IMG/VR virus record: IMGVR_UViG_3300035698_019858
Span: 1 to 44,844 of that record
DNA: 44,844 bases
Source of the DNA: a virus
Reading direction: 5' to 3' (one strand)
Under the pieces are notes generated by a model. The model saw only the letters and a list, made by a program, of their open reading frames with translations. It was not told the origin of the DNA and made no database searches. Numbering within the stretch: position 1 is the first letter of the stretch; each line of letters opens with the position of its first letter. Shown piece by piece: positions 17,842 through 44,844 of the stretch. A program made the translations under genes and the position numbers.

Positions 17842-17846
17842 ATTAC

Positions 17847-18770: not shown

Positions 18771-18772
18771 TC

Positions 18773-18788
18773 AAGGAGAACAAGGATG
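18773..18788 (+). repeat. Direct repeat flanking homing-nuclease cassette, right copy
   Basis: aaggagaacaaggatg, holding the ribosome site and ATG of the dNMP kinase; identical to 16890-16905. Confidence 0.8.
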
Positions 18789-19481: not shown

Positions 19482-19483
19482 AG

Positions 19484-20604: not shown

Positions 20605-20612
20605 GAGAACAT

Positions 20613-21183: not shown

Positions 21184-21204
21184 CAATTTTTCAAGGATTA
21201 TGAT

Positions 21205-22124: not shown

Positions 22125-22125
22125 A

Positions 22126-23189: not shown

Positions 23190-23198
23190 ATTTACCTC

Positions 23199-23645
23199 TT
23201 ATTTCTCGTCTGCACGTACAAAATTAGGAGCGTCATCAGGACTTTTCTGGAACAACTGGGAAAGGTCGAAAATACGAGTCTTGTTATCAGGCATTTTGTC
23301 GCCTGCCTTTTCGGCTTCTTTTTTCAAAGCTTTCACTGCGTCTTCTCTGTCGATGACTTCAATTTGTTTGAGGTCTTCTTTGCAGAAAACATGTTGTCCG
23401 GGTTCCCCTCGGATCTTTTTATTCAAATTATCCGCAGAAAATGACGCTTCATCGCCCCATTCATTCGGGGCATCATCGTCTGGGTTTTTGATTTTGGCGA
23501 AAACTACTCGACTGTCCTCGGTGGCCCCGAAGATGTCTTTATCTTTCTTGAAGAAGAGAATGTGGCCACTGTTATCAATTAACGCATCTACCTTGCTTTG
23601 GGCATCCTCGTCCATTACGAGCCATTTTCTGAATTGTGTTCTCAA
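23199..23645 (-). CDS. Putative head-associated protein, TTG start
   Basis: 148 residues if started at TTG behind aggcggt (MRTQFRKWLVMDEDAQSKVD); an ATG ten codons later is possible. The first residues fit the F-R-x-W-L form of the CTS-like motif seen in other genes here. The rest is charged, with no recognisable domain. An ATAAATA box lies 31 nt upstream of the TTG on the same strand. Confidence 0.6.
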   Translation of the reverse strand: MRTQFRKWLVMDEDAQSKVDALIDNSGHILFFKKDKDIFGATEDSRVVFAKIKNPDDDAPNEWGDEASFSADNLNKKIRGEPGQHVFCKEDLKQIEVIDREDAVKALKKEAEKAGDKMPDNKTRIFDLSQLFQKSPDDAPNFVRADEK

Positions 23646-23676
23646 CTTACCGCCTCTTTTTTCTGGGGAACACAGG

Positions 23677-23683
23677 TATTTAT
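23677..23683 (-). promoter_or_regulatory. ATAAATA late-promoter-like box
   Basis: ATAAATA on the minus strand, 31 nt upstream of the TTG start, overlapping the end of the homing endonuclease gene. Confidence 0.4.
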
Positions 23684-24426
23684 TGCATGTGCCGTAATTT
23701 GTATCGCATAACTGATGGAATTTGTAGATCCAAAAACATTTGTTCCCATATAGGGAAGAGTTTGTCTCGGTTGGATTTTCTCAAGGAAATTCTGTTGGTT
23801 TTCACGCTTAGACTTAGGTTGAGATTTTCATTTATGGAGTTTATTGATTGAGCCAGTTCAATTCTGTCGAAACAACTATTCCAAATATTGGCTTGCCCTT
23901 TGTGTATCCCGCCATCATCCAGATACCAAACAAGTAGCCCCAATTCGTTGATTGTAGATATTAACTTAGGCAATTTGGTCTTTTTGGAATCTGTGTACAT
24001 CTGCGTTCTGAGAGTTGAGAAAAATTCGTGAGTAGGGGTGCTCATGGATCGATTATTTTTGGTAATCGATGGCTTGAATGGTGACAACATATGATGCTTC
24101 CATTTTAGGTAATCACCTTGTTTTTTCCCATGTGTTTCTCCAAAAGAGCAATTTATCAGTCTTTTGTTTTTGATTACGTATCCATCCCCGAGTAGGCTTC
24201 CGATGAAGATTTGCTGTTCAATGTCATTGAGTGTATCAAAACTAATATCTGATAGTTTTCTTGAACCAATCCGACCAATTTTCTTTATTCCCATCTTCCT
24301 TCTCATAGATTGGATGCTACCCTTGGTGTGTCTTGGAAGCAGAAGACTCAACTGGTTGTCGCCGACCTTTGCTGCTTTTTTGATCAATAATTCAATTTCT
24401 TCTTCTAACCATTTGTTATATTTCAT
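23680..24426 (-). CDS. LAGLIDADG homing endonuclease
   Basis: 248 residues. An N-terminal helical part (MKYNKWLEEEIELLIKKAAK) resembles a DNA-binding HTH. Two motifs follow: FIGSLLGDGYV and LLVWYLDDGGI, the form used by LAGLIDADG_2-type free-standing enzymes. ATG has a gagaggtaaca ribosome site. It sits alone between head-like genes on opposite strands, with no sign of splicing of a host gene, so it is a free-standing homing gene. Confidence 0.85.
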   Translation of the reverse strand: MKYNKWLEEEIELLIKKAAKVGDNQLSLLLPRHTKGSIQSMRRKMGIKKIGRIGSRKLSDISFDTLNDIEQQIFIGSLLGDGYVIKNKRLINCSFGETHGKKQGDYLKWKHHMLSPFKPSITKNNRSMSTPTHEFFSTLRTQMYTDSKKTKLPKLISTINELGLLVWYLDDGGIHKGQANIWNSCFDRIELAQSINSINENLNLSLSVKTNRISLRKSNRDKLFPIWEQMFLDLQIPSVMRYKLRHMQ

Positions 24427-24477
24427 TGTTACCTCTCATAACTATGTAGTAATCCAATTAAGGAAATTACTTGTACC

Positions 24478-25053
24478 ATGACTACTTTTCGTAAGTTCCT
24501 GAGAGACCATGATTTCAACTTCTCCCTTCAGGAGCAAGAAGCTGCACCACCATCTGGAATGCCATCTCCACCTGCGGACCCAGAATCGGACGCTAGCGAT
24601 GGATATGAGAATGTTCCTAATTCCATGGCCAGAGAGTTTAATGTGCCAGAGGAGGCTTTGAGAGCCGCTTTGGAGACAGGATCTTTGACATTGCAGCAGT
24701 TGCCACAGGGGATTGAAGGTACATGGGGGTTTTATGTAAGACCCCCGATTGACGTTTCTGTGGAAGAGTCAGCGGAAGGTCAGTGGCAGGTTAAGTTCCC
24801 ACTTCAGATGTTGCACTCTATGAATCCTCAGATTTTCTACAATCAAGACGAAGAGGGTCGGGTGTATCAATATCAGGGTCCAGTGGAAGACAAAACGATT
24901 ACGATGTCCACAGGACAACTCATGCAATCTTGGCAAGGTAAAGCTTTTGCGGGAGCAGGAGCGGGCGGCGGAATGGGCGGAATGCCTCCGATGGGAGGCA
25001 TGGGCGCACCACCGATGGGCGGTGCTCCTCCAATGATGGGAGGTGGGATGTGA
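24478..25053 (+). CDS. Putative head-associated protein with CTS-like N-terminus and Gly/Met/Pro tail
   Basis: 191 residues. Begins MTTFRKFLRDHDFNF, matching the CTS-like pattern. A Pro/Ala-rich segment (QEQEAAPPSGMPSPP) follows. Residues 45-150 form a soluble domain; the last 40 residues are Gly/Met/Pro repeats (GGMGGMPPMGG). No enzyme motif. The GTGA overlap couples it to the next gene, which also has a CTS-like start. Confidence 0.68.
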   Translation: MTTFRKFLRDHDFNFSLQEQEAAPPSGMPSPPADPESDASDGYENVPNSMAREFNVPEEALRAALETGSLTLQQLPQGIEGTWGFYVRPPIDVSVEESAEGQWQVKFPLQMLHSMNPQIFYNQDEEGRVYQYQGPVEDKTITMSTGQLMQSWQGKAFAGAGAGGGMGGMPPMGGMGAPPMGGAPPMMGGGM

Positions 25054-25424
25054 AGTTCAAAGATTTCATCGAGATGACCTCGACTGCAAATGTTGCTGGC
25101 TTCAAGAGAATGAGTCTTCCTATGGCTCGTCGAACTTGGCCACCGTCAATGGCTGTGATGATCGATCAAGATCCTCCCGGTAAAAAGAAGAAACCTTACA
25201 AGGTTCCTCAAGTTGAAGAGGGTGTCAAGGATTGGGCTAAGAAATATAAGGTGGACACTAAGGCCCTGAAAGATGGTGTAGATGTCGAGGCTGAGCATGA
25301 CGGAAAGATGGGCAAGGACACCGACGTTGTCGGACCTAAAGAAGACAAAGCCAAGATAGCCACTGCCCATCTACGAGAAGACCCCAAGTATTACAAGAAG
25401 CTCAAAAAGATCGAGAAAGATTAA
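25050..25424 (+). CDS. Putative head-associated protein with CTS-like N-terminus, basic
   Basis: 124 residues from GTG, overlapping the previous stop (GTGA) behind gggaggt. Begins MKFKDFIEMTSTANVAGF, the closest match here to the T4 internal-protein targeting peptide. The rest is rich in Lys (KYKVDTKALKDGVDVEAEHD) and highly charged, like DNA-bound internal proteins. No domain known. Confidence 0.68.
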   Translation: MKFKDFIEMTSTANVAGFKRMSLPMARRTWPPSMAVMIDQDPPGKKKKPYKVPQVEEGVKDWAKKYKVDTKALKDGVDVEAEHDGKMGKDTDVVGPKEDKAKIATAHLREDPKYYKKLKKIEKD

Positions 25425-25780
25425 CTCAATCCCTTTCTAGTTTCTGCATCATTGACACCTTCTCCATATTGTTCTATGTCATTGCCTGATCCATAGGGAT
25501 TGGTGCCCATCTGCGACATGGCTTCTGCTATTTCCCGTTCTTGCTTCACCTTGGGAATATTGTGTTTGAATCGGTAGTCATGTCCACCTGATTCACTGTT
25601 CCATCGGTCTGTGCCAACGGGGTTAGTAAAAGCATAATTACAGGCTGAAATCAACTTGACTTTCTTTTTGGAACCACACTCAGGACATTCTACCTCTTCA
25701 TACATTTCTGTTTCGTCGTATCTGACGACTTCGTCATAGATTTTATTACATTCGTGGCATAGAAATTCATAGAGAGGCAT
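25421..25780 (-). CDS. FmdB-type zinc ribbon protein
   Basis: 119 residues. MPLYEFLCHECNKIYDEVVR with C-x2-C, then VECPECGSKKKV with the second C-x2-C, the FmdB ribbon. The C-terminal half (residues 55-119) is polar and unassigned, longer than in the 64-residue paralogue at 16614. Strong aaggaga site. The upstream homing endonuclease overlaps its first 14 nt. Confidence 0.82.
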   Translation of the reverse strand: MPLYEFLCHECNKIYDEVVRYDETEMYEEVECPECGSKKKVKLISACNYAFTNPVGTDRWNSESGGHDYRFKHNIPKVKQEREIAEAMSQMGTNPYGSGNDIEQYGEGVNDAETRKGLS

Positions 25781-26507
25781 AGCAGATCTCCTTTTTTCTT
25801 TCTAAGAAAATAGTGGCGTCATTATACATCCAATCAGCAATTTTCTTCGCTTTTATGTTTCCGCAAATCTGCAATTGCCGAGTAATTTTGTTGTTTCCTG
25901 TTGGGTGTAACTTGTTGTTCGTCTTGAGGTATTTTTGGAGTTTAGTAAGGAATACTTCTGTTCCGACGAACGAAACTCTTAGCTGTGGTGTTTTTCGTTG
26001 AGCCCTCCATCCAGCAGACCCATCACCATCAAAATATCCACGCACAAAGTGTTTTGTCAGCAATCGGTTGAGATATGGAAACTTCAAAGTGTTTGATTTA
26101 CGTGGAGTGCAACCGAGTTGAATCAGATCTTGGCACATTTTCTGGGAATAGTGTTGGCTTTGGGTGCCACTTTTCATTCTGTGTATTTTAAGGCATGAGT
26201 TTATGGCATTGTGCCATTTTTTTAAGTGCTCTCCATCTTTGTTCGCTATTTTGATTACAACTTTTGGATTATGTGTCATCGAAACGCATCCATCAGCCAT
26301 AATGAAGCCAAGCCAATAAGCTTTTGATTCGCAATCTATTGTTTCAAAGAAGTTTTCGTTAAATTGTATTTGTTTTTTGCTTATGCCCCAATCTTTCATC
26401 CGGTGTTGTAGCGTAACGCGGCTGATGTTCAATGATTTGGATATATCGGTGATCGTTTTTCCCAACCGGATCTCTTTTGTAATAAATTGTTGATCTACAT
26501 GTTTCAT
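25767..26507 (-). CDS. LAGLIDADG homing endonuclease
   Basis: 246 residues from the ATG 5 nt behind a TATATA box; the frame extends 45 codons upstream into the previous gene, which is not used. HTH-like N-terminus (LGKTITDISKSLNISRVTLQ). Motifs AYWLGFIMADGC and FVRGYFDGDGSAGW carry the catalytic Asp residues. AT-rich. It lies between two minus-strand genes, overlapping the FmdB gene, with an AAAAGGAGAT ribosome-site copy on each side. Confidence 0.88.
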   Translation of the reverse strand: MKHVDQQFITKEIRLGKTITDISKSLNISRVTLQHRMKDWGISKKQIQFNENFFETIDCESKAYWLGFIMADGCVSMTHNPKVVIKIANKDGEHLKKWHNAINSCLKIHRMKSGTQSQHYSQKMCQDLIQLGCTPRKSNTLKFPYLNRLLTKHFVRGYFDGDGSAGWRAQRKTPQLRVSFVGTEVFLTKLQKYLKTNNKLHPTGNNKITRQLQICGNIKAKKIADWMYNDATIFLERKKEICYASL

Positions 26508-26512
26508 AATGA

Positions 26513-26518
26513 TATATA
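26513..26518 (-). promoter_or_regulatory. TATATA box, 5 nt before ATG
   Basis: Minus strand TATATA-tcatt-ATG. No Shine-Dalgarno sequence. An ATAAATA box (26528-26534) lies a few bases further upstream. Confidence 0.5.
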
Positions 26519-26527
26519 GATACCCTA

Positions 26528-26534
26528 TATTTAT
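26528..26534 (-). promoter_or_regulatory. ATAAATA late-promoter-like box
   Basis: Minus-strand ATAAATA, 20 nt before the LAGLIDADG gene start. It competes with the TATATA box, so which is used is unclear. Confidence 0.3.
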
Positions 26535-26560
26535 TTTGGATGTAAAAAGCCAATCTCCTT

Positions 26561-26854
26561 TTATTCCTCTGTCATTTCGATGAGATCTTGATAGATTTTC
26601 TTGATTTCTTTCATTTTGGTAGCTGTACTGCGAAAACTCCAAAAGAAGGACTGTTTCGCAATCTCAATCGCCTTGGACAACAAGTGATGGCTCAACTCTG
26701 ATTGTGCAATTTCCATGTTCATCATTGATATGAGGTCATCGGAGTCCACATAGGCAATGGCGTCTCCTTCTGTTTCTTCGTATTCGTCCTCGAAAGTATC
26801 ATCTTCGAAGCTGAACTGTTCATCGTCTTCGTTATTATAGAATCTTTCGACCAT
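26561..26854 (-). CDS. Hypothetical acidic/helical protein
   Basis: 97 residues from ATG with a gtgagg site (MVERFYNNEDDEQFSFEDD). The first 45 residues are very acidic; the rest is helical (LSHHLLSKAIEIAKQSFFWS, then a Lys-rich helix). This acidic-plus-helix form is common in small phage proteins of unknown role. It follows the 27543 gene by 8 nt, so the two are one unit. Confidence 0.7.
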   Translation of the reverse strand: MVERFYNNEDDEQFSFEDDTFEDEYEETEGDAIAYVDSDDLISMMNMEIAQSELSHHLLSKAIEIAKQSFFWSFRSTATKMKEIKKIYQDLIEMTEE

Positions 26855-26862
26855 ATTGGACC

Positions 26863-27543
26863 TCACGCTGTTGCGCTGTAAAGGTTGCACGTTTTCTTCC
26901 ATAATTCCACTATTCGATTCTCGTTGACCGTCATCGCTGTCGAAGCGAGTCCAGCCGCACTTGAGAATGGGCATCCCTTCAGTGTATCTATCCATTTTCC
27001 GCATCCTTTGCGGTATGTTACTAGTGGGTTCAATTCTTTTGTTTCGTTCGCTTCTGGACACAGTCCTCCTATTTCGGCCTCGTTCTCTGTATAGCTGTGC
27101 AAAAAGTTGTTTTCAAAAAAGTGGTCGTTCATCATAGTTTGAACAGAAATCTTGTTTGGTTTGATAAACCAAACATCTTCATCTATCCATACTTTTTTGT
27201 TGTTAAAGATGGTTAATACTTTTGGGTTCAAAACATCCACAGCCATCGTGAGGTCTGGAACGACTAGCAATCCTTCGCCTGTGTAGTGAAGTTGAGACAC
27301 GGAGTCCATTTGGTTAGCAACTGGGTCATCTCCGAGTCGATTGTGGTGGAAGAACGGTATTCTTAGGCGTTTTGTCCATTGAAAAAACTGGAAAGGTGTC
27401 TGATCATTCCGGTGACAGGCGATAGAGACGTTGGCTTCCGGTAGGTTCTTAAAGAAAGAATACCATGTTCCAAATGTCTGCCAATCTCGTCCTGTTTCTG
27501 TAATAATTAGGACATTCAGGTTGTTTCCGAACTGGTTGATCAT
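26863..27543 (-). CDS. Hypothetical protein, Rossmann-like N-terminus
   Basis: 226 residues. NLNVLIITETGRDWQTFGTW at the start looks like a beta strand and turn of a nucleotide- or sugar-binding fold, followed by NVSIACHRND and GLLVVPDLTMAVDVLNPKVL, which also look like alternating strands and helices. It might be a glycosyltransferase-like fold, but no DxD or other key motif is seen. ATG lies 5 nt behind TATGAT, without a ribosome site. Divergent from thyA. Confidence 0.65.
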   Translation of the reverse strand: MINQFGNNLNVLIITETGRDWQTFGTWYSFFKNLPEANVSIACHRNDQTPFQFFQWTKRLRIPFFHHNRLGDDPVANQMDSVSQLHYTGEGLLVVPDLTMAVDVLNPKVLTIFNNKKVWIDEDVWFIKPNKISVQTMMNDHFFENNFLHSYTENEAEIGGLCPEANETKELNPLVTYRKGCGKWIDTLKGCPFSSAAGLASTAMTVNENRIVELWKKTCNLYSATA

Positions 27544-31035: not shown

Positions 31036-31308
31036 ATGGCAGAAGATCCCAAAAAGGATGTTGATCAAAAGGAGGTTGGGGCACAATTCATAGGGCCTGA
31101 AACCTCAATAATGATTTTCGGATTTTTGTGGTACGTTGTAGTTACCATGTTCCAGTCGGTCTGTGGTTGGTTAGGAATTCAACTATTTAAGAGGATGTGG
31201 GACAGAATCCGTTGTTTATGGAAGAAGGATGGAGATGACGAAGAAACTTCTAGCGAGATTTCTGAGGAGGAATCGGCAGCAGCGTCTAGTCGTACACTGT
31301 CTGGGTGA
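31036..31308 (+). CDS. Small single-pass membrane protein
   Basis: 90 residues behind gtggaggtg. Residues 1-20 are soluble and charged (MAEDPKKDVDQKE). IMIFGFLWYVVVTMFQSVCG is a membrane helix, followed by a basic stretch (KRMWDRIRCLWKK) and a Glu/Ser-rich tail. It overlaps the start of hldE by about 80 nt in another frame. Function unknown. Confidence 0.65.
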   Translation: MAEDPKKDVDQKEVGAQFIGPETSIMIFGFLWYVVVTMFQSVCGWLGIQLFKRMWDRIRCLWKKDGDDEETSSEISEEESAAASSRTLSG

Positions 31309-32608
31309 TGCGATGGTGGACGAGTATTTCAGTGTTAAGGTGAATCGGATCAGCCCAGAGTTTCCGATGCCCATTATGTGGTCTTCGAAAGCAGCACCCA
31401 CAAAACGACCCGGAGGTGCTGCTAATGTTGCATATCAATTCAAACACTTCAACGTCGACACATCCCTGTTTTGTTTTTGGGACTCTTACGCGGTGAAGGT
31501 ATTTGAAGATCATGGTCTTTCTGTAGATTGTGCTTGGGGATCTCAATGTTGCCTTCCCATCAAACGTCGATTTCTAGACGGCGTCACGCAAATCATCCGC
31601 CATGACATCGAGAACGATTTGTGTGGGTACACCATACCGCAAGTCAATGATAATATAGAGAAATTCCGCCCTATCATTGTGGACAAGAAGAAGCCGGATA
31701 TCGCCATATTCTCAGATTACGATAAGGGATTTTTTGCCGCAAACAATCTTTTGGATATGTATGATGGCGTTACAACAATTGTAGATCCTAAGAGAGGTCC
31801 GTTGGAAAAGTGGGAAGGATGTACAATCTTTAAGCCCAATTCCAAAGAAGCGGTTGATCTCAGCGGATACACCAACTGGAGAGATCAAGTTCATTTCTTC
31901 CAAGACAAATTGGGATGTGAGGCTGTTGTGATCACTTTTGGTGGGGAGAAGGTGGCGGGGATATGGGCAAATGAACTTTTTGAATACCGACCTAACCGTC
32001 CAGTACACGTTGAGAGTGTTATCGGGGCTGGTGATTGTTTCGCTGCTATGTTTGCTTTGGCTGTTGGTTACGGCTTTACTATTTCCGAGTCAGCGGAGAT
32101 TGCTTGGAATGCTGGATCGGTTTATGTCCAGCGTAATATGAATAGTCCTATCATCCCCGGCGAAGTCTCATTGAACGGAGTCGTGGAGCCAGAAGATCTT
32201 GCTAGCAGGGATTTCAAGTTATCTTTTGCCAATGGCTGTTTCGATCTTCTGCATGATGGGCATTTACAAACTTTAGAATTCGCCAAGAGTAAAGCCAAGA
32301 GGTTGGTGGTGGCCCTCAATAGTGACGCTAGCATCAAGAGGTTGAAGGGGGAGGATCGTCCCATAAAACCGTTGGAACAACGTATGGCGGTGATGGCGGC
32401 TTTAGAGATGGTCGATTTCGTCGTTTCATTTGATGAAGATACACCGCTTGAGGTCATTAAGAAGATCAAGCCTGATGTATTGGTCAAGGGCGCGGATTGG
32501 GACAGTGGAGCCATCGTGGGCGAGGGTGTTGTCCCTGAAATTTACCGTGCTCCAGTAATTGACGGATTGAGCACTACGGGCTTTCTTCAACATGGTGCCC
32601 ATCAATAG
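31235..32608 (+). CDS. hldE: Bifunctional heptose kinase / adenylyltransferase (HldE-like)
   Basis: Makes ADP-heptose from heptose 7-phosphate: a kinase and an adenylyltransferase (the phosphatase step is separate). About 457 residues, similar to bacterial HldE (477). The N-terminal PfkB-type kinase has GGAANVAYQF and GAGDCFAAMFALAVG. The C-terminal nucleotidyltransferase has FANGCFDLLHDGHLQTL, with the HxGH site as HDGH. ATG at 31235 has gatggag upstream; 31229 is an alternative. In bacteria it feeds LPS core. A phage copy near a GT9-like gene suggests capsule, LPS or ADP-heptose signalling. Confidence 0.88.
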   Translation: MTKKLLARFLRRNRQQRLVVHCLGDAMVDEYFSVKVNRISPEFPMPIMWSSKAAPTKRPGGAANVAYQFKHFNVDTSLFCFWDSYAVKVFEDHGLSVDCAWGSQCCLPIKRRFLDGVTQIIRHDIENDLCGYTIPQVNDNIEKFRPIIVDKKKPDIAIFSDYDKGFFAANNLLDMYDGVTTIVDPKRGPLEKWEGCTIFKPNSKEAVDLSGYTNWRDQVHFFQDKLGCEAVVITFGGEKVAGIWANELFEYRPNRPVHVESVIGAGDCFAAMFALAVGYGFTISESAEIAWNAGSVYVQRNMNSPIIPGEVSLNGVVEPEDLASRDFKLSFANGCFDLLHDGHLQTLEFAKSKAKRLVVALNSDASIKRLKGEDRPIKPLEQRMAVMAALEMVDFVVSFDEDTPLEVIKKIKPDVLVKGADWDSGAIVGEGVVPEIYRAPVIDGLSTTGFLQHGAHQ

Positions 32609-34541: not shown

Positions 34542-36602
34542 ATGGAAAATACCACTCTATCTCGTTTCGCAAAGATGTATGATCGAAATGAATTCCTCAC
34601 CTTGAATGAGGAGATGACTTTCGAAGAGTACCTCGAAAAGATGCAAGCTCAGCCTACATTGGCGAGGAATTCCTTTCAGTACATTTACGACATGATCATG
34701 TCACATGGTTGTGAAACTTTCGAACGGTACCGCAGAACGTATACTCGGTACAATTTCTTCAGCAACTCGGATATTCCAATTTTTGGATTGGAAGAGACTC
34801 TCCAGTCGCTTGTCGATTTCATCCACGGGGCCGCAGGTAGCTACGGCACAGAACGTCGCGTGCTTCTTCTCCATGGTCCAGTGGGTTCGTCCAAGTCAAC
34901 TATTTGCCGAAGGCTCAAGAGAGGGCTGGAGGAATACAGTTGCAGCGACAAAGGCGCTTGGTATACCTACAAGTGGGTCAACCTGCCCTTTGAAGATGGA
35001 TCGGACCCGATCTATACGGATGGCGAATGCATGTCGCCCATGAACGAGAATCCTCTCAAGTTGATGGCTGGCAAGATGCGATCCGAGTTCCTCAAGGAAC
35101 TCAACAAGACGTACTCTGCCAATGGCGGACCATACAATCTGCTCTGCGAAGGCGATCTCAACCCCCGTTGCAAGCTCTTCATGAGAGAATTACTGCAACG
35201 CAATGAGGGTGACTGGAAGAAGGTTGTGGAGAATCACATCCGCGTGGTTCGCAAAACCCACTCCGAGATCGACCGATGTGGAATTGGCACTTTTCAACCG
35301 AAAGACGAGAAGAACCAAGACAGCACGGAACTTACCGGTGATATGAACTTCGCCAAGATTGGTCACTTCGGTAGCGACAGTGACCCCCGTGCCTTCAATT
35401 TTGATGGTGAATTTGAGGTCGCCAACCGTGGCGTGTGTGAATTCATCGAGATGTTGAAGTTGGCGAACGAATTTCTTTATGATCTGCTTGGTGTCAGCCA
35501 AGAGCATCAGATCAAGCCGAAGAAGTTCAGCCAGATCGTAGTGGATGAACTCATCATCGCCCACACCAACAACCCCGAGTACGAGAAGCTGAAGAACAAC
35601 CAGTTCATGGAAGCTCTTCGCGACCGTACCATCAAGGTGGATGTGCCTTATTTGCTCCGCTGGTCGGACGAAGTCAAGGTGCTTGAGCAGGACTACGGAC
35701 CTGAGCAACTCAAGCAGCATATCATGCCGCATACGTTGGAGACGGCGGCGTTCTTTGCAGTTCTCACTCGTCTCGAAGGGGACGGCGACGATAAGCTCGA
35801 TCTTCGCGACAAGGCCAAACTCTATGATGGCCGAAGCTTGCCCGGTTGGACTGAGGATTCTGTCAAGGAGCTTCAGGACAAGTTCCCCGAGGAAGGCATG
35901 AAGACGGGCGTATCGGCTCGATACGTTCAAGACAAGATATCCAACTGTCTGGCTCGAAACAAGGAATATGTCAATGTTTTCCATGTTCTCAGCGAGATCA
36001 AGTCAGGTTTGGGAGTTTCTTCGCTAATTACCAATGTGGAAGACGTGAAGAAATATGAATACTGTGTCGAACTCGCGATCAAGGAGTTGGACGAAGTTCT
36101 TAAGAATGAGGTCCAAAGAGCATTGGTTGCTGACGAAAAGGCCATCGAACGTCTTTGCCTCAAGTACATCGACAACGTTATCAGCTATGTCAATGACGAG
36201 AAGATGGAGAATCCCATCACTCACGAGTTGATGGAGCCGGATGAAAGGTTGATGCGGTCCATCGAAGAGAAGAACGGCATCCCCGAACAGGGCTGTGATG
36301 ACTTCCGACGCTCTCTGGCTGCCTTCATCGGCACTTTGGCCAGTCGTGGCAAGCAGTTCAAGTGGGACTCCAATCCAGAGCTTAAGCGGGCTCTGGAAGC
36401 CAAGGTCTTCGAGGACGTGAAGGACACTATCAAGTTGAGTGCCCTCACCAAAGAAGCCGCAGAGCTTGATCCTGACCTTCAGGAAAAGATCGACGCCATC
36501 AAGACCCGACTCATTAAGCAGTACGGGTACAACCAGAAGTCCGCTAGCGATGTGCTGGACTATGTCAGTTCAATCTTCGCTAGGGGCGATACCTCTAACT
36601 GA
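34542..36602 (+). CDS. prkA: PrkA-family serine protein kinase (YeaG-like)
   Basis: AAA+-type serine kinase known in bacteria for stress, nutrient and sporulation responses, acting with YeaH and SpoVR. 686 residues, close to E. coli YeaG (644). Walker A GPVGSSKST at 112-120. The AAA+ body includes GPYNLLCEGDLNPRCK and FSQIVVDELIIAHTNNPEY. Residues 530-686 form the PrkA C-terminal domain (kinase-like region), with a helical tail. Ribosome site aagggg. It is followed by a terminator, then the methylase gene, so it is transcribed apart from yeaH and spoVR. All three partners are in the same phage region. Confidence 0.9.
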   Translation: MENTTLSRFAKMYDRNEFLTLNEEMTFEEYLEKMQAQPTLARNSFQYIYDMIMSHGCETFERYRRTYTRYNFFSNSDIPIFGLEETLQSLVDFIHGAAGSYGTERRVLLLHGPVGSSKSTICRRLKRGLEEYSCSDKGAWYTYKWVNLPFEDGSDPIYTDGECMSPMNENPLKLMAGKMRSEFLKELNKTYSANGGPYNLLCEGDLNPRCKLFMRELLQRNEGDWKKVVENHIRVVRKTHSEIDRCGIGTFQPKDEKNQDSTELTGDMNFAKIGHFGSDSDPRAFNFDGEFEVANRGVCEFIEMLKLANEFLYDLLGVSQEHQIKPKKFSQIVVDELIIAHTNNPEYEKLKNNQFMEALRDRTIKVDVPYLLRWSDEVKVLEQDYGPEQLKQHIMPHTLETAAFFAVLTRLEGDGDDKLDLRDKAKLYDGRSLPGWTEDSVKELQDKFPEEGMKTGVSARYVQDKISNCLARNKEYVNVFHVLSEIKSGLGVSSLITNVEDVKKYEYCVELAIKELDEVLKNEVQRALVADEKAIERLCLKYIDNVISYVNDEKMENPITHELMEPDERLMRSIEEKNGIPEQGCDDFRRSLAAFIGTLASRGKQFKWDSNPELKRALEAKVFEDVKDTIKLSALTKEAAELDPDLQEKIDAIKTRLIKQYGYNQKSASDVLDYVSSIFARGDTSN

Positions 36603-36625
36603 TTGATGGGGGTGTGACCGACACC

Positions 36626-36660
36626 AAGGGCGACGGCGTGTTCGCCGTCGCCCTTTTTTC
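36626..36660 (+). terminator. Rho-independent terminator after prkA
   Basis: 13-bp stem AAGGGCGACGGCG / CGCCGTCGCCCTT, TGTT loop, T-run. Confidence 0.95.
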
Positions 36661-36683
36661 TTATACACATTTGGAGTTTGGGA

Positions 36684-37598
36684 ATGGCATCTTTTTTTCG
36701 GTATCCGGGCGGTAAATCTAAGTTGCTGAAAAGCATATGCGCACATCTCAAGGTGTATGCTGGCAATTTAGATCTGGAGTATCGTGAGCCTTTCTATGGT
36801 GGCGGGAGTGTTGGTTTAGGGTTCATTGAAGACAATCCTAACTGGAATAAGATTTGGATCAATGACAAGGATATTGGAGTAGCTTGTCTGTGGACTTCAT
36901 TGATCAAGCATCCAAAAGATTTGAAGGAAATGGTTAGGGATTTTGAACCATCTATTGAGGCGTTTGATGAATTCAAAGAGTTCTTAACTGTTGAATTACA
37001 ACAAGAGCCAAAACAGAGACAAAAGGTGGTTACGGCTGGTTTCAAGAAGCTTGCGATTCATCAAATATCTTATTCGGGTTTGGGCACCAAATCTGGTGGA
37101 CCGTTAGGTGGACGAGAACAAAAATCAAAATACAAAATAGATTGCAGATGGTCGCCAGAGTACATTTGCAAGAAGATCGACAAGTTGAATAAAATGTTCT
37201 CTTCTTTGGAAATCAGGGAGGAGTGTTGTACGAATCATGATTTTGAGGAGTTGATCAAAACAAATGGCGAAGCTTTTCTCTATGTGGACCCACCATACTA
37301 TGACAAAGGCAAAGTTCTTTATCAATATGGGTTTACTCCAGAAGATCACGAGAGGTTGTCTGAAGCCCTTAAAACCACGCTTCATTCATGGATACTTTCA
37401 TATGACGATTGCCCTGAAATACAAGACTTGTATAGTTGGGCAGAAAGAATACCTGTTTCAGTGAACTATAGTATTACAGCTACTAAGGACAAGGAGTCAG
37501 GGAAGCGTAATTCTCGCAAAAAAACGGAGCTTATAATTTGCCCTAAGAAACACATGGAGGCGTTTAATGCAAGCAAGGAATTATCGGACACCGGATAA
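36684..37598 (+). CDS. D12-class N6-adenine DNA methylase
   Basis: Transfers methyl to adenine N6 in DNA. 304 residues. FRYPGGKSKLL (SAM site, class D12 order), EPFYGGGSVGLGF, then VDPPYYDKGKVLYQYG (catalytic DPPY). Similar in form to Dam/T4 Dam and DpnM types. The target site cannot be read. Ribosome site ttggag. The 3' end overlaps the first of two tandem paralogues by 32 nt, making a coupled three-gene set that separates prkA from yeaH. Likely self-protection against host or own nuclease. Confidence 0.88.
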   Translation: MASFFRYPGGKSKLLKSICAHLKVYAGNLDLEYREPFYGGGSVGLGFIEDNPNWNKIWINDKDIGVACLWTSLIKHPKDLKEMVRDFEPSIEAFDEFKEFLTVELQQEPKQRQKVVTAGFKKLAIHQISYSGLGTKSGGPLGGREQKSKYKIDCRWSPEYICKKIDKLNKMFSSLEIREECCTNHDFEELIKTNGEAFLYVDPPYYDKGKVLYQYGFTPEDHERLSEALKTTLHSWILSYDDCPEIQDLYSWAERIPVSVNYSITATKDKESGKRNSRKKTELIICPKKHMEAFNASKELSDTG

Positions 37599-38253
37599 CT
37601 CAGAAGAGTTCGCGAAGGATCTCACAAGAAGGATATGCATATTCGACCAGCGTGATCAACCACACCTAAATGTAGATGACGTGGATATGATTAAAGAGAG
37701 TTCCAGTACGCACGCTGATCAAATGAAAAGTAGTGTTTATCATTATAAAAGCAACAGAAACGCAACTAAGGCAAGAGAAGACATTTACAACGGGAAGTGT
37801 GGAGAGTATATGGGGTCTGCTTTCATGGAGAGGAATGGCTTTCCGAAGGTTGATCCCGATGTCGAGATTTATGCCACAAAGAATAAGACATTTTCGCCAG
37901 ACTTGCCTTTCAGTAAGGTAAACAAAGCACTTCCAGATTGTGGAGTAAAAACTTGCGAAAGCACTTTGGATTTCATGGAGAAGAACACTGGTGAACGACA
38001 AAAGACATGGACCTTTCAACTAAACGACATAGACAAGAGAAATGGCAGAGATACTCTTTTCGAGAAAACTGGATCATCGGAGCCAATCTTGTTTGTGTAT
38101 GTTGATGAAACATTGTGTTCTGCCGAGGTGGTGGCGTCTGCTCCTTGGTCCAAGGTGCATCCGTTGCTTAAAGATCCAGTCAACCCAAGGCTGAAAGGGC
38201 TTAAGAAGTGTCTTTATATGGACGATTTGGTGAAGGTGAATAATCAACAATGA
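37567..38253 (+). CDS. Putative nuclease-like protein, paralogue A
   Basis: 228 residues, translationally coupled to the methylase (tggagg site inside it). Related to the next gene by shared blocks: LTRRICIFDQRDQ, GKCGEYMGSAFM, SPDLPFSKVN, PDCGVKTCES, KTWTFQ, RDTLFEKTGSSEPIL and VVASAPWSKVHPLL. The order Glu (GEY), Asp (PDLPF), D-x-G-V-K and a following Gln (WTFQ) resembles a degenerate PD-(D/E)XK nuclease core. Not proven: the acidic residue directly before x-K is Gly. With a methylase next door, a restriction-modification-like role is the leading guess. Confidence 0.62.
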   Translation: MQARNYRTPDNSEEFAKDLTRRICIFDQRDQPHLNVDDVDMIKESSSTHADQMKSSVYHYKSNRNATKAREDIYNGKCGEYMGSAFMERNGFPKVDPDVEIYATKNKTFSPDLPFSKVNKALPDCGVKTCESTLDFMEKNTGERQKTWTFQLNDIDKRNGRDTLFEKTGSSEPILFVYVDETLCSAEVVASAPWSKVHPLLKDPVNPRLKGLKKCLYMDDLVKVNNQQ

Positions 38254-38933
38254 AATATTATCAGTTATCAAAAAACCCTCTTGATTTAGCTTATGACATG
38301 ACTAGTAGGGTTTGCATGTTTGATCCCAAAGATCAATTGGTTCTGTCTCCAAAGATGGATGCTATGATCAGAAAAAGATCAAATCAATTTTCTGATGCTG
38401 TGGACAAAAAGGTTCATGATAATCAGAGGGATGCCGGAAAGAGTGATCCAGACAACTTTTGGGGGAAGGTTGGAGAATATATCTGTTCTTTCTTCATGTA
38501 TAAAAAGGCAGGGTTCCCTTCTGTTATGCCGGATACCGAGATCTATTCTGATTATCAAAAGAAGATGTATGAACACGATCTTCCTTTTGGACAGGTGGAT
38601 TCGAGATATCCAGATTGTGGAGTTAAGACATGTACTTCAGGAACTATTGAAATGATTGGGGAAATGAGTTGGACCTTTCAGTTTTGTAATAAAAATGGAA
38701 GGGGAGGAAGAGACAAGCTCTTTGATAAACCTCAATCCCCGGAACCAATATTATTAGCTTGTGTCGATCCGGGTCTTACAAAAGATACCCGTGTGGTTGC
38801 TTCTGTTCCTTGGAATCAAATGTTCCCGTTGCTTGGCGAGATGCGTTTTCCAAGATACAAAAAGACAAAGAGGGCTCTTTACTTTAACGACTTGGTTGAA
38901 CTCAATGACCTTTACACAGTTACAGTAATTTGA
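38250..38933 (+). CDS. Putative nuclease-like protein, paralogue B
   Basis: 227 residues, ATGA overlap with paralogue A. Shared blocks: MTSRVCMFDPKDQ, GKVGEYICSFFM, HDLPFGQVDSRYPDCGVKTC, MSWTFQFCNKNGRGGRDKL, PEPILLACVDPG, VVASVPWNQMFPLL. All candidate catalytic residues of the partner are kept here, so neither copy is an obvious dead half. Two unequal subunits, as in heterodimeric restriction enzymes, are possible. It ends 46 nt before yeaH. Confidence 0.62.
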   Translation: MKYYQLSKNPLDLAYDMTSRVCMFDPKDQLVLSPKMDAMIRKRSNQFSDAVDKKVHDNQRDAGKSDPDNFWGKVGEYICSFFMYKKAGFPSVMPDTEIYSDYQKKMYEHDLPFGQVDSRYPDCGVKTCTSGTIEMIGEMSWTFQFCNKNGRGGRDKLFDKPQSPEPILLACVDPGLTKDTRVVASVPWNQMFPLLGEMRFPRYKKTKRALYFNDLVELNDLYTVTVI

Positions 38934-38979
38934 TAAGATCGTTTTGGTCACAAACACGATTCATTAAGTGAGCATAGAC

Positions 38980-40227
38980 ATGCCTAAGCGAATTCAAGAA
39001 GATCACAAGAAATTCAGAGACGTTGTGTCAGGTCGTACACGCAGAGAACTGAAGCGTCTTATCAAATCAGGTGCTATCGTCCGGCAACGACCAAAAGGCG
39101 GCAAGATGACCATCTCGATTCCAGAAATCGAGATTCCCCGCTTCGTGTTTGGTGACACAGGAGAAGGAATTGGCAGGGGTCCGGGAAAGGAAGGTGATAT
39201 CGTTGGCCGCGATCCCCAGCCGGGAAAAGGAAATCAAGCCGGGTCCGCGCCGGGCGAAGGCATCAATATTCAGATCGACATGGAAGATGTTCTCAAATTC
39301 ATGGAGGAAGAACTCCAACTTCCCAACATGAAACCAAAACCCAATGAAACTTTCGAAGAAGTCAGAATTAAGTACAATGACATCTCGAAAACGGGTCCAG
39401 AATCTCTTCGTCATACTCGTCGAACTATGCTTGAAGCACTCAAGCGATTGGCAATGACAGGTGACTTGGAAAATCTGCATATGGTGCCAAGTTCTAAGGT
39501 GCCAATCAGACTGATCACTCCCATCAACTCGGATCGTCGTTATCGACAGTACCGAGAGATCAAAGTCCCTACCTCGAACGCTGTCATTTTCTTCGCACGA
39601 GACTGTTCGGGTTCGATGGACGATTTCCGTTGTGACATTGTCAGTGACATGGCATGGTGGATCGATTGTTGGATTCGAAAGTTCTACAAACGAGTGGATC
39701 GTTGCTATTTCGTCCACGACACTCGTGCCCAAGAGGTTAATGAAGAGCAATTCTACACCTACCGCTACGGTGGCGGCACGATGTGTTCTTCGGCCTTCAG
39801 AGCGATTGCCGATCAGCTTGAGAATCGGTATCCACCCGAAGCTTACAACATCTATGTTTTCTACTTCTCAGATGGAGACAACTGGGGAGATGACAACAGC
39901 AAGATGGTGAAGATCATGAAGGAGGAATTGGGTCCGCACGTGGTCAACATGATCGGCATCTCCCAGATTTGTTCTTGGCGATACCAAGACAGTGTGAAAC
40001 AGTATGTTGATCAGTGTCTTGCTGATGGGGAGTTGGATAACACCTTTATCCGCACGGCCTATGTAGGGCCAGAAGAGAAGAGTGGCGATGACAACTTTGG
40101 GTTTGGTCATTGGGGTTATGCTCCTGATCTGACAGAAGATGATCGCAACGAACAAATCATTGAAGCCGTTAAGCGATTGCTTTCTGTCGAAAGAGATCGG
40201 TACAAAAGAGCAATTGAGGCGGCGTAA
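38980..40227 (+). CDS. yeaH: YeaH/YhbH-family (DUF444) VWA protein
   Basis: Partner of PrkA in bacteria. 415 residues, close to E. coli YeaH (427). The N-terminal part is basic (KKFRDVVSGRTRRELKRL), then a Gly-rich linker (GEGIGRGPGKEGDIVGRDPQ). The C-terminal VWA domain has a complete MIDAS start, ARDCSGSMDD (D208, S210, S212), followed by FVHDTRAQEV and YGGGTMCSSAFRAI (the MIDAS Thr). ATG at 38980 has gtgag at good spacing; GTG at 38968 is an alternative. Confidence 0.9.
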   Translation: MPKRIQEDHKKFRDVVSGRTRRELKRLIKSGAIVRQRPKGGKMTISIPEIEIPRFVFGDTGEGIGRGPGKEGDIVGRDPQPGKGNQAGSAPGEGINIQIDMEDVLKFMEEELQLPNMKPKPNETFEEVRIKYNDISKTGPESLRHTRRTMLEALKRLAMTGDLENLHMVPSSKVPIRLITPINSDRRYRQYREIKVPTSNAVIFFARDCSGSMDDFRCDIVSDMAWWIDCWIRKFYKRVDRCYFVHDTRAQEVNEEQFYTYRYGGGTMCSSAFRAIADQLENRYPPEAYNIYVFYFSDGDNWGDDNSKMVKIMKEELGPHVVNMIGISQICSWRYQDSVKQYVDQCLADGELDNTFIRTAYVGPEEKSGDDNFGFGHWGYAPDLTEDDRNEQIIEAVKRLLSVERDRYKRAIEAA

Positions 40228-40237
40228 GGAGACGGCG

Positions 40238-41263
40238 ATGCCCACAGATCCACAGGCACTTTATGATGAGTGTTTGGCTGTCTGCCATAACTACGCGAAG
40301 ACAGGGCAGACTATCAAAGCCATGGAAATGCTGAAGGTTCTTAGGAAACTTGATCCAGATAACCCGCTGACTGAATTGTTTGTGGTGGAGACAACTTTGT
40401 TTGGAGGGAGTTATCATCACGATAACCCCCGAGATCCGGTTATTTCCTTTCATGTCAAGGAAGGCGGCGAGGGGTTCTTCGGTCACGATTGGCGCGGCGA
40501 AGATCTCGATGGCAAATCCATTGAGATCTTCGCGGATCAAGGAGCAGGGGATGTAATCATTCTTCTGAGATACCTTCAGGAGATGAAGCGTCGATGGGAT
40601 TGTCGTATAGCCCTGAATTGTTATGGGCACTATCAGATATTGAAAGACAGTCTTTCTGATTTTGATTTCATCGAACGGATCGCGTACAAGCATATCATAT
40701 GTGATTATTGCACAAATCTGTATAGTGTACCCGCGATCCTGAACGGGATGGACGTGTGCTATCCGGCTCATTTTGCAGAACTTCTAGAGAAACCTGTTCC
40801 AGAACAACCTGTGTTTAGGAGCAAGATGATTACTGCCCCATCTTCTGTAAAGAAAATTGGAGTTGTTTGGGAAAGTAACCCCGCGAATTCTTTGCACCAC
40901 AAAAAATCATTAGACCCTGATCTTTTGCGATCATTGAAAGGGAACATGGAGTTGGTGTCCCTACTGCCGGGAAAGGCAGGGTTGGATTTCATTGACGAAA
41001 GAAGAAACATAGAAAGTTTACAGGATACAGTAAAACTCATATCCACATTGGACGCGGTGTTTTCTGTAGATACTGTGACGCTACATCTGGCAGGTAGCAT
41101 GGGAAAAACAACTTTTGGATTATTGGCGTTTGATGCGGATCATCGGTGGGGTTCTGGAGACACAACCCTTTGGTATCCGAGCGTGAGACTGTTTCGTCAA
41201 TCTACAGAAGGTTCTTGGCAAGAGCCTTTAGACGATCTTGCCAAAGCATTAGAAGAAGTGTAG
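40238..41263 (+). CDS. TPR plus GT9-like glycosyltransferase
   Basis: 341 residues, aaggag site 10 nt after yeaH. The first 60 residues form a TPR-like helical hairpin (AKTGQTIKAMEMLKVLRKLD). The rest resembles the tail of heptosyltransferase-like (GT9/GT-B) proteins: KKIGVVWESNPANSLHHKKS, then STLDAVFSVDTVTLHLAGSM, and WYPSVRLFRQSTEGSWQEPL. The sugar donor would be a nucleotide sugar, possibly ADP-heptose given hldE at 31.2 kb. It sits between yeaH and spoVR in the same orientation. Confidence 0.72.
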   Translation: MPTDPQALYDECLAVCHNYAKTGQTIKAMEMLKVLRKLDPDNPLTELFVVETTLFGGSYHHDNPRDPVISFHVKEGGEGFFGHDWRGEDLDGKSIEIFADQGAGDVIILLRYLQEMKRRWDCRIALNCYGHYQILKDSLSDFDFIERIAYKHIICDYCTNLYSVPAILNGMDVCYPAHFAELLEKPVPEQPVFRSKMITAPSSVKKIGVVWESNPANSLHHKKSLDPDLLRSLKGNMELVSLLPGKAGLDFIDERRNIESLQDTVKLISTLDAVFSVDTVTLHLAGSMGKTTFGLLAFDADHRWGSGDTTLWYPSVRLFRQSTEGSWQEPLDDLAKALEEV

Positions 41264-41335
41264 AATACGAACCAGCCCCGTTAGCCTTTTAATGCCATTG
41301 CAGGGGCTTGGTACTTGCAACATTGGAGCTTAATC

Positions 41336-42937
41336 ATGACGAAATCTAGAATGCTCAGTGGAACTTCCCTGCTACAGGGAGATAACACGGTTCCCGGTGT
41401 GCCTGTACATAAAGAACTAGTCGAGCTTCTTCCTGAAATTGAGCGACAATGTCGCAGGATGGGGTTGGATTACTATCCTATCGTGGTTGAGTTCGTTCGT
41501 TATGATGAGATGGCAGAGCTTGCCAGTTACGGTGGCTTTCCTGTTCGGTATCCCCATTGGAAATGGGGAATGGAATACGAGCAGATGGCTCGTGGCTATG
41601 AGTTCAATCAGTTTCGCATCAGTGAAATGGTGATCAACACCAATCCGTGTTACATCTACTGCATGGACTCCAACACGCTGGTCGACAATGTGGATGTGGT
41701 TTGCCATGCCATTGGACACAATGATTTCTTTAAGAACAATATCTTCTTCGGACCCACTGATGGTAATATGATGAATAAGTTGGCCAACCATGGCACACGT
41801 ATTCGTCGCTATATGGCTCGCTGGGGATACGAAGTGGTCACCGAGTTCATTGATCATGTGCTCCGTGTGGAGACTCTCATCGATCCCCAGAAGGCTTGGA
41901 GACCGAAGGTAATCCAGAAGGTCAATGTTCGTGATGAACGTGAATACCGATATCCTCGTCGCATCCATTCCGAAAACGAATACATGGATGAGTGGGTGAA
42001 TCCCAAAAGGTATATTGAGGAAGAGAACGATAAGATCGAGAAGAAAGAGGCTCGGGACTTCCTTGATATGTTCGGCAAGAATGACAGAGATGTCATGGGA
42101 TTCTTGAAAGATCATGCTCCCATGAAACCATGGCAGCAGGATATTATTTCCATGCTCTATGAAGAGAGTATGTATTTTCATCCACAACGTCAAACCAAGA
42201 TGCTCAATGAAGGTTGGGCTTCCTTTGTCGACTACCATCTTCTGTGCAGAGAGGGCATGGCTGCTCTTGGACAAGAAGGGGATGACTGTGGCATCTGGGA
42301 ATACGCCAAGCATAAGATGCTTGTCCTTGGTGGCAAGTACAGCATGAATCCCTACAAGCTCGGATTCGAATTGTTCACTGACATCGAAGAACGATGGAAC
42401 AAAGGGAAGTTCGGAACTGAATGGGAAGATTGCCAAGACATGAAGAAGAAGGCCGAATGGGACACCAAGGCTGGATTGGGCAACGAAAAGATCTTCGAAG
42501 TTCGCCAATACTACAACGACTTTACTGCTATCCAAGAATTCTTCACACAGGAATTCTGTGAAGAGAAGGAGTTCTACGAGTACCGCAAGTTCCCGAATGG
42601 CGAGTGGAAGATAGTAGATCGCGATTTCAAGTCCATTAAAAAGAAGTTGCTCAGCCGATATCTCAACGGCGGATTGCCCGATATCCGACTGACCGACCCG
42701 AACCACCTTGGCAAGGGATGGTTCTTCCTGCAACACAAGTGGGATGGTCGGCCTTTGTATGACAAGTATGCCCGAGAGGTGATGCCTTCGCTGTTCAAGA
42801 TCTGGAAGAACAACATTGTGTTGGCGACCCAGAACATGGACGGGCAAGAATTCACGTACATCTGTGATGGCACTGATCCCGACAAGGACGTACATGTCAT
42901 GAGTCGTGAAGAATATGAGTTGGAGTTTGTAAAATGA
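41336..42937 (+). CDS. spoVR: SpoVR-family protein (YcgB-like)
   Basis: Third partner of the PrkA-YeaH-SpoVR set. 533 residues, close to E. coli YcgB (510). MLNEGWASFVDYHLL is the strongly conserved signature. VVCHAIGHNDFFKNNIFF, KPWQQDIISMLYEESMYFHP and NPYKLGFELFTDIEERWNKG match family blocks. A biochemical activity has not been settled in the family. attggag site before ATG. It overlaps the next small gene (ATGA). Confidence 0.92.
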   Translation: MTKSRMLSGTSLLQGDNTVPGVPVHKELVELLPEIERQCRRMGLDYYPIVVEFVRYDEMAELASYGGFPVRYPHWKWGMEYEQMARGYEFNQFRISEMVINTNPCYIYCMDSNTLVDNVDVVCHAIGHNDFFKNNIFFGPTDGNMMNKLANHGTRIRRYMARWGYEVVTEFIDHVLRVETLIDPQKAWRPKVIQKVNVRDEREYRYPRRIHSENEYMDEWVNPKRYIEEENDKIEKKEARDFLDMFGKNDRDVMGFLKDHAPMKPWQQDIISMLYEESMYFHPQRQTKMLNEGWASFVDYHLLCREGMAALGQEGDDCGIWEYAKHKMLVLGGKYSMNPYKLGFELFTDIEERWNKGKFGTEWEDCQDMKKKAEWDTKAGLGNEKIFEVRQYYNDFTAIQEFFTQEFCEEKEFYEYRKFPNGEWKIVDRDFKSIKKKLLSRYLNGGLPDIRLTDPNHLGKGWFFLQHKWDGRPLYDKYAREVMPSLFKIWKNNIVLATQNMDGQEFTYICDGTDPDKDVHVMSREEYELEFVK

Positions 42938-44169: not shown

Positions 44170-44844
44170 ATGCCAAGACAGTCAAAAGATCAAGTTCTGT
44201 ATGATGCCCACAATCACGGAGTCAACTTAAATCTACGTGATATCTATCTGCATTCTTATTATCAGAAGGACGAATTTGAAGAACCGGGCGTGGATTACAG
44301 ACAAGCCGTCACGTTTATTAAGAACCTTCATGTGTTGGATAATCACCCTCATAAATCAATTTTAGTGCATCTCCATAGTATCGGAGGAGACTGGGACAAC
44401 GGTATGGCGATCTTCAATGCTATTCAATTCGCCCAGTCATACATCACTATGTTGTCTTATTCTCAGGCATCTTCAATGAGTGGGATTATCTTTCAGGCAG
44501 CCGAGTTTCGCTGTATGATGCCGGATTGTCACTTCTTAATGCACCACGGTGCTAGTGCATGGGGTTCTGGACATCCGTTCGCTAATAAGACTGCCGCCGA
44601 CTTTGAGATGAAGGCATGTAAGAGGATGCTGGAGATATTTGCTGGTAGGTCTTGGGATACAGGTGTATTTTTCACTCGCAAGAAATCTTCTACTGCACAG
44701 ACAGCTTACAACTTTTTTGACAAAAAACTTAAAGAAACTGTCGATTGGTTCCTTTCTGCTGAAGAGGCATTGTTCTACGGTCTTACAGATGCTATACTCG
44801 GATGTAAAGAATACCCGGATTTGCCTGCTCTAAGGAATGGGTAG
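44170..44844 (+). CDS. ClpP-family serine protease
   Basis: 224 residues, ending at the window edge with its stop. Strands of the ClpP fold include SILVHLHSIGGDWDNGMAIF. Nucleophile Ser102 in YSQASSMSGII; base His125 in CHFLMHHGAS; the acidic partner is likely the Asp in ETVDWFLSAEEALFYGLTD, which matches the ClpP end motif well. Ribosome site ggag at a distance, cggagacaaatac. ClpP-like proteases serve as head maturation proteases in some phages, and nearby CTS-like proteins would be natural substrates. Alternatively it acts on host proteins with ClpX/A. Confidence 0.85.
   Translation: MPRQSKDQVLYDAHNHGVNLNLRDIYLHSYYQKDEFEEPGVDYRQAVTFIKNLHVLDNHPHKSILVHLHSIGGDWDNGMAIFNAIQFAQSYITMLSYSQASSMSGIIFQAAEFRCMMPDCHFLMHHGASAWGSGHPFANKTAADFEMKACKRMLEIFAGRSWDTGVFFTRKKSSTAQTAYNFFDKKLKETVDWFLSAEEALFYGLTDAILGCKEYPDLPALRNG

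Follow-up and report, generated by a model that had tools for sequence, protein, structure and literature searches.

PrkA, YeaH and SpoVR form a conserved gene unit in a lineage of huge phages

Introduction

PrkA, YeaH and SpoVR are widespread proteins linked to starvation, stress and sporulation, and what they do has been a question for decades. Why should a phage carry all three, and do they form a working unit there? The question is raised by a linear viral record of 44,844 bases (IMG/VR record IMGVR_UViG_3300035698_019858), analysed in its entirety and referred to below as the window, in which the genes for the three proteins lie in the order PrkA–YeaH–SpoVR on the same strand, broken up by inserted genes. 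A first-pass annotation of the window had described the trio as full length and motif-intact, had allowed that the inserted genes share its function, and had proposed that the phage reprogrammes host dormancy or protein phosphorylation. Among the bacterial proteins, Escherichia coli YeaG (of the PrkA family) and YeaH have been described as a 'metabolic brake' (PMC10954441, PMC4664914), and loss of PrkA in Bacillus anthracis impairs sporulation and survival of osmotic stress (PMC13001217).

Three full-length genes in a huge-phage fragment

All three genes in the window are full length with unbroken reading frames, and the annotated span of 34542–42937 is correct, with the ATG of PrkA at 34542, the ATG of SpoVR at 41336 and its stop at 42937. 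PrkA (34542–36602, plus strand) is a 686-residue protein of the 'long' type that contains an AAA+ ATPase domain (PF08298, 257 bits, E=2.9e-76) and the PrkA C-terminal domain (PF06798, 232 bits, E=1.4e-68; cut-offs 25). Its Walker A motif is GPVGSSKST, and the lysine of this motif, corresponding to E. coli K116 and to K119 in the TTG-started open reading frame (ORF) at 34539 that is used here for PrkA numbering, is kept in all copies. A solved structure, 9xip, is related to PrkA (E=1.9e-200). Against the NCBIfam YeaG-type equivalog NF011999 the protein scores 197 bits, below the curated cut-off of 576: it is a member of the PrkA family and yet no YeaG equivalog. YeaH (38968–40227, plus strand; 419 residues) is a DUF444 protein (PF04285, 218 bits, E=3.7e-64, cut-off 27) with a von Willebrand A (VWA) domain, whose metal-ion-dependent adhesion site (MIDAS) residues D212-x-S214-x-S216, T271 and D302 are conserved over viral and bacterial copies. 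The SpoVR family protein (41336–42937, plus strand; 533 residues) matches PF04293 with 352 bits (E=6.4e-105, cut-off 27); with the SpoVR_C profile PF24755 it reaches 25.2 bits, where the cut-off is 27.6. The motifs HAIGH (131–135) and NEGWASF (298–304) are present in it, numbered from the TTG-started ORF at 41315. The description of the trio as motif-intact therefore stands for the Pfam domains, Walker A, MIDAS and NEGWASF; it needs qualifying at the PrkA residue equivalent to E. coli R232, which is Ala272. Sequence searches for solved structures of SpoVR or YeaH found none, and none of the three proteins matched the defence-system library.

The window is a 44.8-kb piece of a huge-phage genome. 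Its gene content is of the large lytic phage type (DnaB-type helicase, gp32-like single-stranded DNA-binding protein, RecA and DEAD-box helicase) and additionally includes thymidylate synthase, dihydrofolate reductase, a ClpP-like protease and several LAGLIDADG and HNH endonucleases; neither end repeats nor tRNA genes were found in it. The best match in the phage collection is the same for all three proteins, the 595-kb uncultured phage record LR756511 (62% identity for PrkA, 59% for SpoVR and 52% for YeaH), and other relatives are IMG/VR contigs of up to 527 kb that carry a terminase. The right-hand 25 kb of the window has DNA-level similarity to none of the deposited phages. The phage origin assigned in the first-pass annotation is thus confirmed, with the trio locus lying inside terminase-bearing contigs.

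Distribution and synteny of the trio

Close relatives among IMG/VR viral contigs number at least 133 for PrkA and at least 94 for SpoVR. Within the stretch compared, all three genes are found at 80 of 85 distinct viral PrkA loci, and the remaining five stretches end just past PrkA, or inside or just past YeaH. Synteny across phages, which the annotation had offered as a check, is uniform: every one of the 80 loci holding all three genes has them in the order PrkA–YeaH–SpoVR on one strand, mostly adjacent, with median gaps of 252 and 36 nt. The conserved unit is PrkA–YeaH–SpoVR.

To avoid selection by the trio itself, contigs were also chosen independently of it, by their terminase. PrkA and SpoVR were found in five of the 18 terminase contigs tested (527, 458, 381, 341 and 298 kb) and not in the others; all terminase contigs of at least 298 kb except one (323 kb) have both genes, and the 527-kb contig was detected solely via its terminase. 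In each of the five contigs that have recA and run far enough past it, the trio lies ~18–35 kb beyond that gene. Two trio-negative contigs with recA stop 12–23 kb after it, and the other negatives examined have no recA. Since terminase-first contigs of this size nearly all carry PrkA and SpoVR near recA, the trio appears to be a core locus of this phage lineage, with one possible absence among contigs that are fragments.

Origin and constraint

In query-anchored FastTree trees of 75–76 viral sequences (near-duplicates removed) and the 80 nearest bacterial loci, the viral copies form a single split from the bacterial ones for each protein, with support of 0.965 for PrkA, 0.79 for YeaH and 0.978 for SpoVR; a clade of their own had been named in the annotation as something to look for. 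The nearest bacterial loci belong to Myxococcota, Chloroflexota, Planctomycetota, Bdellovibrionota, Calditrichota and others, and 49 of the 50 bacterial loci with all three genes share the order and strand PrkA–YeaH–SpoVR. Pairwise distances of the three proteins are correlated in a mirror-tree comparison (r of 0.93, 0.92 and 0.89; none of 500 permutations was as high). The one viral split, the shared bacterial order and the correlated distances suggest that an intact cluster was captured once from bacteria and then inherited vertically.

The trio is under strong purifying selection. The median ratio of nonsynonymous to synonymous substitution rates for close viral pairs is 0.031 for PrkA (21 pairs), 0.043 for YeaH (10 pairs) and 0.025 for SpoVR (8 pairs), and the ~85 distinct viral ORFs for each gene are open, with a single possible break, on a 5-kb contig. 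That selection maintains the trio as a functional unit in these phages is a conclusion we draw with high confidence.

Separate captures in other large phages

The same three families occur in phages outside this lineage. In three phages of 634–642 kb (LR745206, LR756504 and LR756502), PrkA is 62–65% identical to E. coli YeaG and only 24–27% identical to PrkA of the window. A scan with YeaG-type PrkA returned 153 viral stretches; among the best 80 loci, 65 hold the whole trio in the same PrkA–YeaH–SpoVR order, and several are on terminase-bearing contigs. These phages and the YeaG-type IMG/VR contigs thus share the trio and its order with the window and differ in having a YeaG-type PrkA that keeps R232 and K426, which marks their trio, as judged from sequence, as a separate capture. 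A further case is provided by the Thermus phages phiYS40, TMA, YS40_Isch, MN1 and others, in which genes annotated as 'serine kinase', 'SpoVR' and DUF444 lie close together. These are smaller phages with the order YeaH–SpoVR–PrkA, 24–34% identity to the window proteins and a branch of their own. By these sequence comparisons, the whole trio was acquired separately by at least two further kinds of large phage.

What the trio may do during infection

Since dozens of giant relatives keep the trio and other large phages acquired it separately, its products very probably have a real task in infection. We propose that a huge-phage lineage acquired the bacterial PrkA–YeaH–SpoVR cluster as a unit and retained it as a fixed locus. 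PrkA would act as an ATP-driven AAA+ ring, with YeaH as the VWA/MIDAS partner bringing in a client, and SpoVR would be a metal-binding effector or client. Their joint remodelling of host proteins would bring the infected cell into, or hold it in, a state of curbed metabolism adapted to stress, like that set by YeaG and YeaH in starved E. coli. Such a state would be of use to phages that infect starved hosts, or to those whose very large genome goes with a slow cycle.

That the trio is a working machine, taken up as one unit long ago, that controls the metabolic state of the host is a proposition to which we assign about even chances. Our confidence in the specific host-control role, which draws on analogy, is moderate. 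An action on host dormancy or metabolism, as first proposed, would be consistent with the E. coli 'metabolic brake' work. The accompanying proposal of protein phosphorylation is doubtful: whether PrkA acts as a kinase is disputed (PMC13001217, PMC4664914), and the position of K426 is Asp in long-type PrkA. More tentatively, and with the balance leaning somewhat against the proposal as a whole, the trio might serve very large phages in general as a machine that controls host quiescence or the host proteome; it would have been captured whole at least three times and would be a core locus, and biochemically altered, in the window lineage, with SpoVR as a metal-dependent effector whose motif is a homing site for phage and bacterial inteins.

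Several points weigh against the host-control proposal. The proposed role derives from work on E. coli, where YeaG is of another PrkA type and 26% identical to the window protein, and the AAA+/VWA/metal-effector mechanism is likewise an analogy. The Arg at PrkA position 272 is lost in ~70% of the viral clade, and activity may differ there. A fold search of the PDB with the SpoVR model gave no match at E<=0.001. Finally, the 323-kb terminase contig (IMGVR_UViG_3300023174_000040; locus L313) and its 251-kb twin with an identical terminase (IMGVR_UViG_3300027963_000035; L312) have neither recA nor the trio; secondary loss of the trio or a missing part of the genome could account for both.

If the proposal holds, some of the largest phages have a locus for control of host physiology among their core features. 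The strong constraint on the trio and its repeated capture as a whole speak for three proteins that work as one machine and serve a replicating virus. The phage trio also offers a new handle on these proteins, through phage genetics and natural variants that lack a supposedly essential residue.

SpoVR: a predicted metal site and inteins

An AlphaFold2 (AF2) model of SpoVR, built from 47 sequences, has a predicted local distance difference test score (pLDDT) of 79 and a predicted template modelling score of 0.74. The invariant residues include H81, W82, H131, H135, E284 and E299; in the model, a helix following a small sheet bears H131 and H135, and a long later helix bears E284 and E299. This placement of the His pair and the Glu pair on helices suggests a predicted metal site at the invariant residues. 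Compared with models of viral proteins, the SpoVR model has one significant match, to an unnamed protein, and weak SprT-like ones.

These features bear on a different and unlikely reading, in which the trio has a phage-intrinsic role: PrkA would be an unfoldase or protease-like machine that, alongside a metallopeptidase-like SpoVR and the ClpP-like protease, matures virions or controls the quality of phage proteins. The four invariant SpoVR residues of the predicted site would form a zincin-like arrangement, and the sub-threshold fold matches include other metalloproteases besides the SprT-like proteins; however, none of these matches is significant, and the HxxGH motif of SpoVR lacks the catalytic Glu of HExxH. 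B. subtilis PrkA is reported to be an ATP-dependent protease in work cited in PMC13001217, whereas neither kinase nor protease activity was detectable in pure B. anthracis PrkA (PMC13001217). At about every second viral locus, SpoVR is indeed followed by a ClpP-like gene resembling head maturation proteases, but many loci lack such a neighbour, and the trio is present in bacteria without virion genes.

In some relatives, SpoVR carries inteins at two fixed sites: site a after residue 108, and site b inside NEGWAS, between its Ala and Ser. They are in frame, start with Cys, end in His-Asn before Ser, Thr or Cys, and contain splicing and LAGLIDADG domains. Site a is occupied in 10 distinct viral copies, site b in 11 viral and six bacterial copies, and both sites in five viral copies. 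Intein-bearing loci include the viral loci L090, L076, L043, L050, L070, L144, L148, L150–L152 and L157 and the bacterial loci L167–L169, L172, L202 and L229. Against Intein_splicing (cut-off 35.8), site-b examples score 44.8 and 51.2 bits; a site-a example scores 31.5 and a mini-intein 21.0, both below the cut-off. The mini-intein, of ~129 residues, is in SpoVR of the 636-kb phage LR756504 (L165:16201–18300), after NEG and nearly at site b. Phage and bacterial site-b inteins are at most 41–44% identical. Frame-shifted pseudogenes or introns were ruled out as the reason for the split SpoVR matches: the interrupting segments are inteins, in frame within open ORFs 862–1378 residues long. The window copy is intein-free. 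Inteins favour functionally essential motifs as insertion sites; the splitting of NEGWAS at site b thus speaks for a putative active-site role of this motif. Our literature search found no paper connecting SpoVR with inteins.

Changes in viral PrkA

Variants of E. coli YeaG at K116, R232 and K426 do not complement (PMC4664914). The R232 equivalent, residue 272 of the window PrkA, is Arg in all 80 bacterial copies and in 25 of ~85 viral copies of this lineage. R232 is no family-defining feature, so the membership of the window protein in the PrkA family stands. The K426 equivalent is Asp465 in the window, and Asp is also found there in nearly all bacterial long-type copies; Lys at this position is thus no general feature. 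With the R232 position changed and K426 not kept in the long type, the mechanism of PrkA in this viral lineage may differ from that of YeaG.

The same changes could be taken as signs of interference, in which the phage copies would mix into or titrate the host PrkA–YeaH–SpoVR proteins and disable them, leaving the host unable to shut down its metabolism. The loss, in most of the viral clade, of an Arg invariant in bacterial PrkA while Walker A is kept would fit, as would changes at several further bacteria-invariant positions. We think this improbable, a little more so than the phage-intrinsic role, since a poison subunit needs only one protein, whereas three proteins, their motifs and their order are all under strong purifying selection. 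Furthermore, K116, R232 and K426 are retained in 79–80 of 80 YeaG-type phage loci (R232 in 79), and with an identity to bacteria of 54% at best, the formation of mixed rings that include host PrkA becomes less probable.

Passenger host DNA or misassembly, with a bacterial fragment or prophage flank mistaken for phage, is hardly credible: although host DNA does occur elsewhere in phage records, as in Enterobacter phage LAU1, host contamination of the window is ruled out by its intein-bearing DnaB-type helicase, gp32-like protein, RecA, thymidylate synthase and dihydrofolate reductase, by the location of the locus inside terminase-bearing phage contigs of 298–595 kb, and by the viral clade formed by each protein. 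The LAU1 record (L163) ends in YeaG and YeaH that are 98% and 93% identical to those of E. coli and are probably host DNA.

Inserted and neighbouring genes

Directly 3' of PrkA is a strong hairpin resembling an intrinsic terminator (36626–36655, plus strand) of 13 pairs, 10 of them G-C, followed by a T run; its core has a folding energy of -24.5 kcal/mol, and comparable hairpins follow PrkA in 11 of 78 relatives. The hairpin may separate transcription of PrkA from that of the downstream genes. A promoter scan gave a site count not above that of shuffled sequences.

Between PrkA and YeaH, the 'methylase trio' of the first-pass annotation proved to be a single methylase gene, encoding a D12-class (Dam-type) adenine methyltransferase (36678–37598, plus strand; PF02086 E=3.8e-22, phrog_56 E=4.5e-43), followed by two paralogs without a family match: paralog A (37567–38253, plus strand; 228 residues) and paralog B (38250–38933, plus strand; 227 residues), which are 43% identical. 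Neither paralog matched anything in Pfam, PHROGs, NCBIfam or PADLOC; relatives of paralog A were found neither in IMG/VR nor in the phage collection, and none of paralog B in the phage collection. An AF2 model of the paralogs from the two sequences is unusable (pLDDT 32), so a likeness to PD-(D/E)xK nucleases seen in a loose helix/strand order is not claimed. The three genes cannot be treated as one methylase system, given the single methylase and paralogs without alignable relatives. The methylase also matches PADLOC PD-Lambda-5_B (E=6.2e-58), and together with the overlapping paralogs (36678–38933) it may make up a small system of restriction-like or protective function.

Between YeaH and SpoVR lies a gene (40238–41263, plus strand) whose annotation as a glycosyltransferase has a weak basis, a match to glycosyltransferase family 9 (GT9; PF01075) that reaches 15.8 bits where the cut-off is 22. 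In the synteny comparison of viral relatives, no further locus has the Dam gene and paralogs at the position they take in the window, and the GT9-like gene recurs at its own position only in the nearest relatives (loci L004–L009). This rules out the methylase, paralogs and GT9-like gene as parts of the trio, contrary to the initial suggestion; they are local insertions.

Upstream of PrkA, a gene for an HldE-like bifunctional heptose kinase/adenylyltransferase (31229–32608, plus strand; phrog_7878 E=1.1e-29, PF01467 and PF00294) is a recurrent neighbour, present in most viral loci. HldE functions in ADP-heptose synthesis, and with the GT9-like gene it could form a phage pathway of ADP-heptose glycosylation. 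The ClpP-like gene downstream of the trio (44170–44844, plus strand; PF00574 E=6.8e-18) runs to the end of the window and matches head-maturation-protease PHROGs at about 1e-13. Elsewhere in the window, the DnaB-type helicase gene is split by an intein with a homing endonuclease (1–2547; PF05203, PF05204), a putative amidoligase (9793–10821; PF12224) lies within the phage replication region, genes for several homing endonucleases of the HNH and LAGLIDADG types are spread over ~10 kb (16903–27543), and a TnsA-like endonuclease with a zinc finger is encoded at 22126–22806 on the minus strand.

Comparison with known systems

Our literature search, which covered one paper library, returned only annotation-level mentions of PrkA or SpoVR in phage. 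The Ralstonia jumbo phage RsoM2USA, compared here by annotation, is an earlier instance of a PrkA/SpoVR pair in a jumbo phage (SpoVR, ORF28; PrkA, ORF30; PMC8504454); SpoVR was called a cell-cycle protein there, and no module was discussed. PrkA and sporulation proteins are both absent from the main text of PMC7162821, the paper on huge phages.

MoxR-type AAA+ proteins form pairs with VWA proteins, such as RavA–ViaA, NorQ–NorD and the magnesium chelatase subunits I and D. Their AAA+ ring and MIDAS partner act on a third protein, which by analogy would be a possible working mode for the trio, although PrkA is of another AAA family and membership is not claimed. The yeaG–yeaH genes and ycgB of E. 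coli represent the same three families and keep the Walker A Lys, but ycgB lies apart from yeaGH, PrkA is just 26% identical, and R232 and K426 of YeaG are not conserved in the window protein.

The long-PrkA cluster of Myxococcota, Chloroflexota, Planctomycetota and Bdellovibrionota has the same families, order and strand as the window, with PrkA at most 54% identical. The viral copies differ from it in forming a separate clade in which R272 is mostly lost, and in many of them positions that are invariant in bacteria are altered, 35 in PrkA, 21 in YeaH and 15 in SpoVR.

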